Of a DNA stretch of 7,283 nt, positions 1 through 6,357 are shown piece by piece. How positions within the stretch are numbered: the stretch's first letter is position 1; each line of letters begins with the position of its first letter. Source of the DNA: Deltaproteobacteria bacterium RIFOXYA12_FULL_61_11 (GTDB taxonomy: Bacteria; Bdellovibrionota_F; JAHFAK01; YA12-FULL-61-11); the NCBI GenBank assembly GCA_001799195.1, contig MGSU01000295.1, positions 1-7,283 of the forward strand, given 5' to 3'. The notes beneath the pieces are model-generated. The model was not told the DNA's origin and did not search any database. It was given only the letters and a program-made list of their open reading frames with translations. The position numbers were made by a program, and so were the translations under genes.

Positions 1-266
1 GGGGAGGTCTTCAAGTTGGATGACGCTGGAGATGCAGGTGACGAAGGCGTGCTCGATGGCATTTTCGAGTTCGCGGATGTTGCCCGGGAAATCATAGCGC
101 ATCAGCGCGGACAGCACGCGCTCGGAACAGGCGACGATTCTTCTGCCTTGGATGGCATTGAAGCGGTTCACGAAGTGTTGGACAAGCAGTGGGATATCCT
201 CTTTACGCTCCGCGAGGGGAGGAAGATCGATGGCAAACACATTGATGCGGTAGAAGAGATCGTTGC

Positions 267-288
267 GAAAGCGGCGGGAAAGCGGCGG
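267..288. repeat. Perfect 11-bp tandem duplication that frameshifts the sigma-54 activator
   Basis: The unit GAAAGCGGCGG occurs twice back to back (267-277 and 278-288). Eleven is not a multiple of three, so the second copy shifts the minus-strand frame of the NtrC-family gene. Removing one unit rejoins the sensor I region to the RNDLFYRIN segment in one frame. This points to a recent slippage-type duplication rather than gradual divergence. Confidence 0.9.
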
Positions 289-460
289 TGCCGGACCTCG
301 CGTTCGAGATTGCAATTGGTGGCAGCGAGAATGCGCACATCGATCTTCTGGGTTTCTGTGGAACCCAGGGGCTCAAATTCCCGTTGTTGCAGAACGCGCA
401 GCAGCTTAGCTTGAACCTGGAGCGGCAACTCTCTGATCTCATCCAAAAGGAGGGTTCCCC

Positions 461-2424: not shown

Positions 2425-2429
2425 CATTG
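2425..2429. repeat. Target site duplication CATTG, right copy
   Basis: This is identical to 461-465 and abuts the right inverted repeat. It codes part of the GLAN motif of the interrupted activator. Confidence 0.92.
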
Positions 2430-2551
2430 GCCAGACCAAAGTGGCCTGGCTTGTCGGTTCTCGCGTCGGTGAAAGCATCTTTGATGTAACGAAAAAGTTC
2501 TGATTCGATAAGATTCTCTGGCACTACAGCACAGTTGATAGCAACCAAAGA
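2425..2551 (-). pseudogene. Central fragment of the same NtrC-family sigma-54 activator
   Basis: The minus strand reads SLVAINCAVVPENLIESELF, then RYIKDAFTDARTDKPGHFGLAN, and stops at the insertion-sequence edge. The family equivalents are PFVAINCAA.PENL.ESELFG and the sigma-54-contacting GAFTGA loop. This is the segment immediately N-terminal to the Walker B region found at 1-465, so the two pieces are one gene split by the element. GAFTGA has become DAFTDA, with both glycines changed to aspartate, so this loop is unlikely to engage sigma-54. Similarity stops at about 2551, and the Walker A motif (G-E-S/T-G-T-G-K-E) is not found in the next 150 bp in any minus frame. The N-terminal half is therefore lost or moved elsewhere. 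The minus frame stays open to 2674 but with no family resemblance. Confidence 0.85.
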
Positions 2552-2607: not shown

Positions 2608-2697
2608 TGTCGACAGGGGTTTTGCATGGAATCCCTAGAAGTTCAAAATAATAGACATGTCGTCTGCCTGGCATCGATCCTGCTGACTTCGCCGATC

Positions 2698-3507
2698 ATG
2701 AACGCAAGGGTCCCCCGGCATCTCCAATTCTCGGACGGCGCACTGCTGCACATGTACTGGCAGTGTACCAACCACAACAAGCAGTACCTCCTCGAGAACG
2801 ATAGTCTCAAAGAACTCTACCTTGAACTGGTAGCGAAGTACAAGAAGCAATACAATATCAAGCTATTGGACTATGCCCTCATGGGGAATCATCAACATCT
2901 CCTTGTACGTATCTCGACGGTCGTGAAGTTCTCGCGCTTCCTGCAGAGCCTGCACACCGCGTTCGCTCGGCGGGTCAATAACCATTATGGCAACACCGGA
3001 GCAGTGGTCGAAAACCGGGTCAAGGTTTCTGTGGTGGAGGAGACCGAGGAAGCGATCCTCGCCGTGCAGCGGTATCTCGCGCTCAACCGCTGGAACTGCG
3101 CCGAACGCACCCTACCGCGCGACTACCGTTTCTGCGGCTACAGCCATTACGCGGGTCTTGAGCGCGACGACCGAATCGATACCTCGGAGGCCTGGTTGGC
3201 CCTGGGCGAGACCGATGCCGAGCGTTGTGCTGCCTATCGTGAGATGGTAGAAGCCCACTGCCAAGAGCAGGGGAAACCCGCGCAGGAGCACGACTATCTC
3301 CCATCCTTCTCCAGAGCGGTGGTGGAGCAGTTCGTACAAGCAGTTTCAGACTCACGAGAGCATGACGACCTCCCGTCCTTTTACAGCGGCTCCCCAGACT
3401 ATTGCCGGACGCAGACCGAGCGGCTCCTCCAGGCTTTCCGCGAGCACAACCGGGCTCTTGCCGCTGCCCGGGCTCTGCGCCTCGATAGTTCCGACACGTC
3501 GAAATAA
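2698..3507 (+). CDS. REP-associated/IS200-like tyrosine (HUH, Y1) transposase
   Basis: This 269-aa protein belongs to the Y1 transposase superfamily, which nicks and rejoins single-stranded DNA through a 5'-phosphotyrosine. The HUH metal-binding motif is LMGNHQHLLV (H65 and H67). The likely nucleophile is Y126 in QRYLALNRW, where relatives usually read RYIxLNPVRA; here Arg replaces the Pro. FSRFLQSLHTAFARRVNNHYG and the RDYRFCGYSHYA segment match the core fold. Residues about 150-269 form a polar tail with a repeated EHD(Y/D)LPSF motif. The frame opens earlier, at an ATG at 2626 preceded by AGGGG, adding 24 residues. I chose 2698 because family similarity begins just after it, although no ribosome site precedes it. 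No IS200-type ends are visible, so it looks like a domesticated or solitary copy. It faces away from the broken activator. Confidence 0.85.
   Translation: MNARVPRHLQFSDGALLHMYWQCTNHNKQYLLENDSLKELYLELVAKYKKQYNIKLLDYALMGNHQHLLVRISTVVKFSRFLQSLHTAFARRVNNHYGNTGAVVENRVKVSVVEETEEAILAVQRYLALNRWNCAERTLPRDYRFCGYSHYAGLERDDRIDTSEAWLALGETDAERCAAYREMVEAHCQEQGKPAQEHDYLPSFSRAVVEQFVQAVSDSREHDDLPSFYSGSPDYCRTQTERLLQAFREHNRALAAARALRLDSSDTSK
3286..3381 (+). repeat. Intragenic duplicated motif EHDxLPSF in the transposase tail
   Basis: Codons 3286-3309 encode EHDYLPSF and codons 3358-3381 encode EHDDLPSF, 72 bp apart in register. The repeat is diverged at the DNA level but clear in protein. It marks a short internal duplication in the C-terminal extension, with no known role. 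Confidence 0.6.
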
Positions 3508-3803: not shown

Positions 3804-4424
3804 CTACTTCTTCAGTATGTCATCGATTCGCTTATTCACTTCGGTCCAGTTTACGATGCTCCAAAATCCCTCAATGAACTTGCCACGATCGTTCTTGTAG
3901 TCGAGGTAGTAGGCATGTTCCCAGACATCCAGGACCATCAGCAACTTGAAGGTCGGATAGACGTTGGTGTTGTGTTTCTCGATCTGCGAGATGATCGGTC
4001 TCATCGTCCCTTTGCAGAAAGTGAGCGCCGCCCACCCGGAGCCCTCGGTGCTATTTGCAGTTTGCGAAAACAGCTTACGAAACCGATCAAATGAGCCATA
4101 CTCCTCGTCGACTATCTTCGCAATGGTTCCCGACGGATTGCCGCCACCGCCCTTCCCAGCGGGGGCAAGGTTTCCCCAGAATAGCGAATGAAACACATGC
4201 CCTCCGATATGGAATGAGAGCTCCTTGAACGTTGCCTTCGGGTCGAAATCAGTACCGGCGGTCCGTGCATTGTCCATCTTCTGTAGAATGGCGTTTGCTC
4301 CGTTCACATAGGCCGCATGGTGCTTGTCGTGGTGCAGCTTCAACAGCTCTTCCGAGATATGTGGTGACAGCGCGTTGTACTCGTACGAGAGACTGGGCAG
4401 AACATACAGTTTCTTTTCTTCCAT
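3804..4424 (-). CDS. sodB: Fe/Mn superoxide dismutase
   Basis: This 206-aa enzyme converts superoxide to hydrogen peroxide and oxygen. The four metal ligands are visible: H31 in [13 protein letters not shown]79 in [13 protein letters not shown], and D166 and H170 in the signature [11 protein letters not shown]. There is no signal peptide, so it is cytoplasmic. The second-sphere positions that separate Fe from Mn enzymes read Gly75 (Mn-type, where Fe enzymes have Gln) and His151 (where Mn enzymes have Gln). That His, together with the [12 protein letters not shown] segment, recalls archaeal and cambialistic enzymes rather than the enterobacterial FeSOD. Metal use is therefore uncertain, and sodB is used in the generic sense. 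A strong ribosome site AAGGAGAG (4438-4431) sits six bases before the ATG. It is probably the last gene of the operon with wrbA and the hydrolase. Confidence 0.95.
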
Positions 4425-4495: not shown

Positions 4496-5107
4496 CTAGG
4501 CTGACAGCTTCTTTGCGATCTGGGCGACATGCCCCCCCTGGAACTTCGCGGCCGCAAGCTCGTTCTCGCTAGGCATGCGCTCTCCCTTGCCTCCGGTAAT
4601 CGTCGTTGCCCCGTATGGTGACCCGCCAGTGATCTCGTCCATGCGGGTCTGTCCCAGAAACGTGTAAGGCAGCCCGACGATGACCATGCCATGATGGAGC
4701 AGCGTCGTGTGGAAGCTCAGGATGGTCGACTCCTGACCACCGTGCTGGGTCGCGGAACTCGCGAAGACGCTTCCGACCTTTCCGACAAGCTTGCCCTGTG
4801 CCCAGAGAGTTCCGGTGGTGTCGAGGAACTGACGCATCTGTCCCGCCATGTTCCCAAACCGAGTGGGCGTCCCGAAGATGATGGCATCAGCGTCAGCGAG
4901 GTCGTCGACGGTGGCCACCGGCACGTTCGCGAAGGACTTCTGCGCGTCCGTCGCGCCCATGGCCTTGACCACGTCGGGCGGCAGGGTCTCGAGCACCTGC
5001 TTGATTGTGAGATCGACGCCTGGCACCTCGCAGGCACCATCGGCGACAGCCTGCGCGAGTCGGTAGGTATGTCCATAGGTGGAGTAGAAGAGCACGAGTA
5101 CTTTCAT
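4496..5107 (-). CDS. wrbA: WrbA-type NAD(P)H:quinone oxidoreductase (flavodoxin fold)
   Basis: This 203-aa FMN enzyme reduces quinones by two electrons, avoiding semiquinone and hence superoxide formation. The flavodoxin P-loop that holds the FMN phosphate is [11 protein letters not shown] (residues 8-18). FMN isoalloxazine contacts are expected in GTPTRFGNM (79-87) and [10 protein letters not shown] (118-127), and the WrbA-typical [10 protein letters not shown] lies at 161-170. Length is normal for WrbA. The start at 5107 is chosen because [12 protein letters not shown] is the family N-terminus and AAAGGA lies 8-9 bases upstream; an in-frame ATG at 5200 would add 31 unrelated residues. Its ATG overlaps the TGA of the hydrolase gene (ATGA), implying translational coupling. 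No signal peptide is present. Confidence 0.93.
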
Positions 5108-5979
5108 CGTTCGATCCTTTCTCGTGAGGGTTGTGTGTCCATCCAGCTTTCCCCAAGAAACGCCAATAGCTCGCGGTTGACCTGGTCTGCGTGCGTCCAC
5201 GTCACACAGTGCGGCCCATCTTTCACCACCTGCAGCCGGGATCCTTTGATGAGCTTGGCTGTTCGGAGCCCCGAGGCTGCGATGGGCAGAATCCGATCCG
5301 CATCACCGTGTATGACCAGTGTGGGAACGTCGATTTGGGCCAAGTCCTTGCGGAAGTCCTCGAGCCACGTATTCACACAAGCGAGACTGGCTGTGGGAGA
5401 GGCTCCGGCTGCGACGTTCCAGCTAGCCTGGACCACCTGGTCGCTGACGCGCTTGCCCAACAAGAGATCGGTATTGAAGAAGTTCTTGAAGAACTCGGAG
5501 AAGAACGCAAAACGGTCCTCGATGACCGCCTTCTTGATACCGTCGAAGACGCTGCCATCTACACCTTCCGGGTTATTAGCCGTTTTCAAGAGGAACGGCG
5601 GGACTGACGAGATGAACACTGCCTGGCTTACGTCCTGCGACCCGAATTTCCCCAGGTAGCGCGCGACTTCGCCGCCCCCCATCGAGAAACCGACCAGCGC
5701 AAGATCGTGCAACTCGAGTCTTGTCACGAGTCTACGCAGGTCCTCTGCAAACGTGTCGTAGTTGTACCCAGTGACCGGATGGGAGGATTTACCAAACCCT
5801 CTACGGTCATACGCAATGACCCTGTAGCCCGTATCGAGAAGGGCCGGCACCTGCTTTTCCCAGGAAGCACCACTCAATGGGTATCCGTGAATCAGGACCA
5901 CTGGCTTACCCGATCCATGATCTTCGTAGAAGAGATCGATGGTGCCGGAGTTTTCCTTGCCGACGGTGACATAGGGCAT
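5104..5979 (-). CDS. Alpha/beta hydrolase of the non-haem chloroperoxidase/arylesterase type
   Basis: This 291-aa protein has the alpha/beta-hydrolase catalytic set: nucleophile S99 in GFSMGGGE, acid D228 in HGDADRILP and H257 in [12 protein letters not shown]. The oxyanion-hole motif is LIHGYPLSG (residues 29-37), and [10 protein letters not shown] follows at 58-67. The cap region (about 130-205) is rich in Phe. The closest described group is the bacterial cofactor-free haloperoxidases/aryl esterases, whose main activity is usually ester or lactone hydrolysis. The substrate cannot be deduced. The start at [12 protein letters not shown] matches family N-termini; the ribosome site is weak (AGAAG). 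It is the first gene of the operon and overlaps wrbA by four bases. It has no signal peptide. The last 15 residues lie beyond the fold and overlap the wrbA ribosome site. Confidence 0.92.
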
Positions 5980-6020
5980 TGAGACGCTTCTTTTGGGCTA
6001 ACGCCGAGGTGGACCTTTGT

Positions 6021-6036
6021 TGGCAACCTGTTAGCA
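6021..6036 (+). promoter_or_regulatory. Possible plus-strand sigma-54-like promoter overlapping the operon promoter
   Basis: TGGCAACCTGTTAGCA has the GG and GC pairs ten bases apart and most consensus bases (TGGCA, GCA), but reads TAGC instead of TTGC. Its -12 end overlaps that of the minus-strand promoter at 6033-6048. It would transcribe towards the small exported-peptide gene. It is weaker than its partner and may be chance. Confidence 0.3.
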
Positions 6037-6048
6037 CAACCCGTGCCA
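6033..6048 (-). promoter_or_regulatory. Sigma-54 (RpoN) promoter of the hydrolase-wrbA-sod operon
   Basis: The minus strand reads TGGCACGGGTTGTGCT. The consensus is TGGCACR-N4-TTGCW. The -24 box is perfect, the GG-to-GC spacing is exact, and only one -12 base differs (GTGC for TTGC). Transcription would begin near 6022, leaving about a 40-base leader before the hydrolase ATG at 5979. Sigma-54 promoters need an AAA+ activator bound upstream. Confidence 0.7.
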
Positions 6049-6067
6049 CATCGGTTACCTTGGACCA

Positions 6068-6081
6068 ATCCAGCGCTGGAT
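6068..6081. promoter_or_regulatory. 14-bp perfect palindrome ATCCAGCGCTGGAT upstream of the sigma-54 promoter
   Basis: Both half-sites are identical, and the palindrome is centred about 52 bp upstream of the predicted start. It is well placed for a dimeric regulator binding between promoter and enhancer. No known operator is recognised. Confidence 0.5.
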
Positions 6082-6155
6082 ATCACGGGAGGAGTTCCTT
6101 CGACCTGGGCGTCAAGGCGATCCTCCGGTCGTACCCATCAGAATGATTGCATGCT

Positions 6156-6168
6156 CTTCATTATGAAG
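6156..6168. promoter_or_regulatory. 13-bp palindrome CTTCATTATGAAG, candidate enhancer site
   Basis: This is a perfect palindrome around a central T, about 140 bp upstream of the predicted sigma-54 start, within the usual range for activator enhancer sites. It also overlaps the first candidate ATG of the small plus-strand gene (6163), so it may simply reflect coding sequence. Confidence 0.35.
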
Positions 6169-6357
6169 TACCGTGAAATGAACCGACAAAATACGTACAG
6201 TATTGCGTTAGGCTCCATCTGCATTCTGTTGGTTATTGTGGCCACCACCGCAGTTGTTGCTGCGCAGCAGGGGAAGGTTGTCTCCAGCTATGGACCGACG
6301 AACCAGGATGTCACCTTCGACCAGATCAAAGCCGATCGTATGGCCATGAAAACCTAG
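6163..6357 (+). CDS. Small putative exported peptide
   Basis: This frame encodes 64 residues (59 from the alternative ATG at 6178). A polar, basic N-terminus is followed by a hydrophobic core SICILLVIVATTAVVAA and a plausible signal-peptidase site before QQGKVVSSYG. The mature part would be about 30 residues, ending DQIKADRMAMKT. No clear ribosome site precedes either ATG. The KVVSSYxP start of the mature part faintly recalls small secreted proteins of deltaproteobacteria, so this could be the truncated front of a longer gene ended by the TAG at 6355. I do not recognise the family with confidence. It diverges from the hydrolase operon and could share its control region. Confidence 0.45.
   Translation: MKYREMNRQNTYSIALGSICILLVIVATTAVVAAQQGKVVSSYGPTNQDVTFDQIKADRMAMKT

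Follow-up and report, generated by a model that had tools for sequence, protein, structure and literature searches.

In enterobacteria, sod and wrbA genes are controlled by SoxRS, OxyR, Fur or sigma-S. The operon described here has similar target genes and very probably differs from these systems in both the sigma factor and the mode of control. Its promoter resembles that of the pspA/PspF system, as both combine a TGGCACG-N5-TGCT core with an upstream activator site (putative in the present operon) in a genome that encodes RpoN and AAA+ activators. However, pspF is divergent from pspA, whereas the present operon has no adjoining intact activator gene, carries other upstream boxes and encodes a hydrolase, WrbA and a superoxide dismutase. 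In Desulfovibrio (PMC4641369), sigma-54 promoters have the form tGGcacg/tTGCt, and activator sites typically lie upstream, some of them being palindromes or inverted repeats. The one-component sigma-54 regulons of Desulfovibrio vulgaris are comparable in their cores, their upstream activator sites and their small size (PMC4641369). In contrast, these regulons were defined by what several genomes share, and the activator gene often adjoins its target operon, while our case concerns one genome in which the neighbouring activator gene is broken.

The window, i.e., the whole stretch of DNA analysed (7,283 nucleotides), is an entire contig (C295) of a 4.64-Mb assembly (342 contigs, 87% complete). 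Judging from sequence, we put the probability at roughly 80% that the promoter in this window is genuinely of the sigma-54 type, has an enhancer-like upstream site and is common to one other operon.

The operon and its probable core promoter

The gene order hydrolase-wrbA-sod proposed in the initial annotation was confirmed. The operon and its promoter element comprise the following features:

5104-5979, minus strand: first gene, alpha/beta hydrolase of the cofactor-free haloperoxidase/perhydrolase group (Abhydrolase_1, E = 6e-44)
4496-5107, minus strand: second gene, WrbA, NAD(P)H:quinone oxidoreductase (NF002999, E = 6e-97; TIGR01755, E = 6e-92; both over cut-off)
3804-4424, minus strand: third gene, Fe/Mn superoxide dismutase, sod (Sod_Fe_N, Sod_Fe_C)
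6033-6048, minus strand: sigma-54 -24/-12 element TGGCACGGGTTGTGCT

The hydrolase and wrbA genes overlap by four bases (ATGA), and a gap of 71 bp lies between wrbA and sod. The nearest solved relatives of the hydrolase are bromoperoxidase A2 and chloroperoxidase T (E ~1e-97), and its best identity (82%) is to proteins of Acidobacteria metagenome assemblies. The superoxide dismutase is nearest, among solved structures, to 1ma1 (E = 7e-86) and 1p7g, which we take to be archaeal enzymes.

A near-consensus sigma-54 element with the right spacing and orientation had been reported 54 to 69 bp before the hydrolase start codon. Indeed, TGGCACGGGTTGTGCT matches the consensus TGGCACG-N4-TTGCW at 11 of 12 specified positions, the mismatch being a G at the first T of TTGC. 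The GG-N10-GC signature is intact and correctly spaced, with GG at -24 and GC at -12, and the ends of the element (6048-6033) lie 69 and 54 bp from the ATG (A at 5979). The transcript start implied by this element is predicted near position 6022, in agreement with the initial annotation. No other 11/12 site occurs in the window; shuffled windows contained a mean of 0.037 such sites (10 of 300 with one), and none of 5,000 shuffles of the 200-bp region before the ATG reached this score on the operon strand.

Genes of this type are usually transcribed from ordinary sigma-70 promoters, with a redox regulator of the SoxR, OxyR or Fur type, and such a regulator could sit on the palindromes that exist upstream of this operon. 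However, no sigma-70 site above chance was found in the upstream region. The single sigma-70-like site there is weak and at chance level, and it lies inside the upstream site described below, approximately 180 bp before the ATG. Since the upstream site recurs together with a strong sigma-54 core, we regard sigma-70 control of this kind as very improbable.

Sigma-54 machinery and other sigma-54 sites in the genome

A consensus match alone is weak evidence for a sigma-54 promoter, as the sigma-54 pattern with one mismatch was not enriched genome-wide (145 occurrences versus 285 for the backward control). Six sites of the exact form TGGCACG-N5-TGCW are present in the genome, and by inspection at least five of them are upstream of, and directed at, a gene. 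The placement of sigma-54 sites across the genome covered 30 loci and relied on a crude gene caller plus inspection.

RpoN is encoded on another contig (C315; DNA-binding domain PF04552, E = 2e-64, in a 567-amino-acid open frame). The genome also contains 32 Sigma54_activat matches, of which approximately 27 look convincing as full or near-full domains; this count is our reading of the 32 matches, from which weak AAA+ hits and the remnants in the window were left out. The psp locus, a classic sigma-54 system (C297, around 7576-8219; L086/L144), served as an internal control. Here, pspA (TIGR02977) is divergent from pspF (TIGR02974), both over cut-off, and the pspA promoter TGGCACGGGAGATGCT lies 55 bp before the pspA ATG. 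It has the same TGGCACG-N5-TGCT form as the window promoter, including the non-T at the first position of TTGC.

Several other sigma-54-like sites were observed. On C87, a strong site (TGGCACGGAACCTGCT; L082:1501-1516, minus strand) is followed after approximately 45 bases by a perfect hairpin (GCCATGGGG...CCCCATGGC) and eight T residues (-22 kcal/mol, z = -4.9). The hairpin lies approximately 200 bp before an open reading frame (ORF) of 412 amino acids and could represent a short sigma-54-dependent RNA or a leader attenuator. Two exact sites, on C207 and C262 (L083 and L084), have an AT-rich upstream motif of another kind (about AATATATTATTAATA), which suggests that a second activator recognises a site of its own; the genes there encode a receiver-domain-like and a lipoprotein-like protein. 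On C45 and C47 (L108, L109 and L110), several one-mismatch sites directly precede ORFs, one of which resembles a Ser/Thr kinase, and the upstream context ACAATTGGCACG is common to two of these sites.

Conserved upstream elements and a second copy of the control region

Upstream of the core, the following elements were found:

6068-6081, no strand: 14-bp even palindrome ATCCAGCGCTGGAT, centred at -52
6097-6117, no strand: conserved dyad CCTTGAC-N6-GTCGAAGG, within a conserved block at approximately 6083-6121
6138-6166, no strand: putative upstream activating site TCATAATGA-N11-TCATTCTGA
6156-6168: odd palindrome CTTCATTATGAAG with 6-bp arms, centred at -140

The upstream activating site reads TCAtAATGA-N11-TCATTcTGA, i.e., two near-palindromic boxes 20 bp apart (approximately two helical turns), and it is centred approximately 104 bp before the -24 element. 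These paired boxes have the shape that would be expected of an activator enhancer. A model search of the genome found three copies (E < 1e-6), in the window, on C335 and on C117, and none further up to an E value of 10. Likewise, a pattern search allowing two mismatches returned two copies with the 11-bp spacer and no more; the spacer of the C335 copy is 12 bp. A small divergent ORF of approximately 59 amino acids (6179-6357, plus strand) begins near this site. It has one hydrophobic N-terminal segment and no Pfam match, and it may be a truncated gene.

When the genome was searched with the upstream region, a second copy of the control region was found at C335:22665-22801 (134 bp, 72% identity, E = 8e-12). 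The homology starts at the upstream palindromes and stops at the final base of the -12 element. The upstream site (26/32), the middle block (31/38), the CTGGATTGG block (13/16) and the core (13/16) show high identity, whereas the spacers (5/14 and 8/15) have diverged and the 60-bp flanks on either side (20/60 and 12/60, near chance) are unrelated. The distance from the centre of the upstream site to the -24 element is nearly fixed (104 bp in the window versus 107 bp on C335). The combination of conserved blocks and diverged spacers argues for selection on both promoter copies during most of their history, and block conservation between unrelated genes is what would be expected of a control region under selection.

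The C335 core is upstream of, and directed at, a gene; two PRC-barrel genes stand behind this promoter, and on its other side lies the beta subunit gene of an alternate F1F0 ATPase of the N type (TIGR03305, above its cut-off). At this locus (L142, 16480-19843), the PRC-barrel pair is divergent from the ATPase gene, and the putative C335 promoter lies between them.

Both palindromes that the initial annotation had placed at about -52 and -140 were located, and they fared differently in this comparison. The palindrome at -140 overlaps one box of the conserved two-box site. The one at -52 is not conserved as a palindrome, as C335 keeps one half only (GGCAAGCTCTGGAT). As palindromes, both are modestly unusual at most (14 bp or longer in 58 of 3,000 shuffles of the 160-bp region). 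The conserved middle element is instead the dyad, which is kept in C335 with an altered loop (31 of 38 alignment columns of its block identical) and could be a binding site for a second regulator or a bending site. The claim of sigma-54 control itself is now well supported, given RpoN and approximately 27 activators in the genome, the psp control and the recurrence of the control region before the PRC-barrel genes.

The third copy of the upstream site (C117:1369-1397; L143, 1365-1400) is 94% identical over 32 bp and lies approximately 250 bp upstream of a collagen-like lipoprotein gene. The best core there, TGGCCTAAAAGCTGCA, scores 8/12, a value reached by 183 of 2,000 shuffles. As this core is weak, C117 may not be a promoter and is not counted in the regulon.

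That the homology on C117 is limited to the 32-bp site would fit a repeat dispersed in the genome or a recent DNA copy, in which the sigma-54 match is incidental. Furthermore, the transposase encoded at 2626-3507 in the window resembles the REP-associated kind, and such enzymes can spread short palindromic repeats. However, only three copies are present in 4.6 Mb, the long homology stops exactly at the -12 element, identity occurs in blocks rather than uniformly, and the C335 core is also placed before a gene and points at it. Mobile or copied DNA is thus an exceedingly improbable source of these matches, and a control region under selection remains our preferred reading.

A broken activator gene downstream of sod

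The end of the window opposite the promoter contains parts of a sigma-54 activator gene and an insertion sequence:

1-458, minus strand: activator remnant, end of the AAA+ domain and lid (Sigma54_activat and AAA_lid_14 matches; 48% in tblastn with the C36 activator)
463-2425 (ends approximate), minus strand: IS1634-family element splitting the activator remnant (NF033559, E = 1e-111)
2426-2548, minus strand: further remnant of this activator gene (profile match 53-93)

The first remnant has a frame shift near position 279 and continues off the contig. In the second, DAFTDA replaces GAFTGA, and the segment that would hold the ATP-binding loop is absent. No further activator part was recognisable upstream of position 2548, where the transposase gene at 2626-3507 is found instead. 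The IS1634 transposase occupies 572-2257 on the minus strand, between terminal inverted repeats at 460-490 and 2400-2430. The element seems to have inserted into a conserved stretch at the boundary of two codons, accompanied by a short duplication (AAT).

The remnants follow sod on the operon strand, and the wrecked gene may originally have stood fourth in the operon and encoded the operon's activator. This is an idea only, as the DNA-binding end of the remnant lies beyond the contig. If it were correct, the control region could be a fossil, with the promoter now silent or with basal transcription from another promoter. The state of the remnants (the IS1634 insertion, the frame shift, the altered GAFTGA and the missing N-terminal half) is consistent with such a loss. 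No intact activator gene adjoins the operon, and the genome search found no activator gene accompanied by this upstream site. However, some 26 to 27 other activators are encoded in the genome, and the blocks of the promoter copies are conserved while their spacers have diverged. The cognate status of the remnant, whose DNA-binding end is off the contig, is moreover not demonstrable. We therefore consider a fossil promoter unlikely and continue with a functional sigma-54 promoter.

Relatives of the operon and the promoter

The order hydrolase-wrbA-sod was not found elsewhere among the relatives of the hydrolase and WrbA. Of the 80 hydrolase relatives (60 to 82% identity, most of them in Acidobacteria assemblies), none had a sod neighbour and one had a distant wrbA. 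Among 29 WrbA relatives from other genomes, none had an adjoining hydrolase gene, and one had a distant piece of a superoxide dismutase gene more than 1 kb away. A model of the 141-bp promoter, searched in 386 genomes, gave chance-level matches only outside this genome (E = 6e-4 to 0.008 per genome), and in the one other genome of the phylum that was covered there was neither a wrbA at E = 1e-20 nor a promoter match. The fetched flanks of the PRC-barrel protein relatives contained no sigma-54 site of at least 10/12 and no adjoining ATPase gene. A limited search of titles and abstracts returned no matching report of sigma-54 together with sod, wrbA or PRC-barrel genes. Where relatives are unavailable, as here, a promoter that recurs within one genome can replace conservation across species.

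Proposed mode of regulation and its meaning

Building on the elements observed, their recurrence and the RpoN and activators encoded in the genome, we propose the following mode of regulation. RNA polymerase bearing RpoN would wait at 6048-6033, and an AAA+ enhancer-binding activator would bind the paired boxes at 6138-6166, centred approximately 130 bp before the predicted start. On sensing its signal, this putative activator would remodel the polymerase via DNA looping. The PRC-barrel gene pair on C335 would be driven by the same control region, and the presence of that region before the pair suggests a small regulon of two operons.

A more far-reaching interpretation is a lineage-specific sigma-54 regulon for envelope and redox stress. 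It would join the antioxidant operon to the PRC-barrel proteins beside the N-type F1F0 ATPase through a complex conserved promoter of approximately 140 bp (paired boxes, dyad and core), on which a distant activator would act now that the operon has lost its own. We offer this as a tentative picture that is rather doubtful as a whole.

The gene set under sigma-54 here is unusual, though not startling. On present sequence evidence, the control region would mark a small shared regulon and not a new kind of control; the mechanism appears ordinary, and the regulon new. Overall, these results would place sod and wrbA, which usually answer to redox regulators or sigma-S, under the control of sigma-54 and an ATP-driven activator, in a bacterial lineage that has been little sampled.
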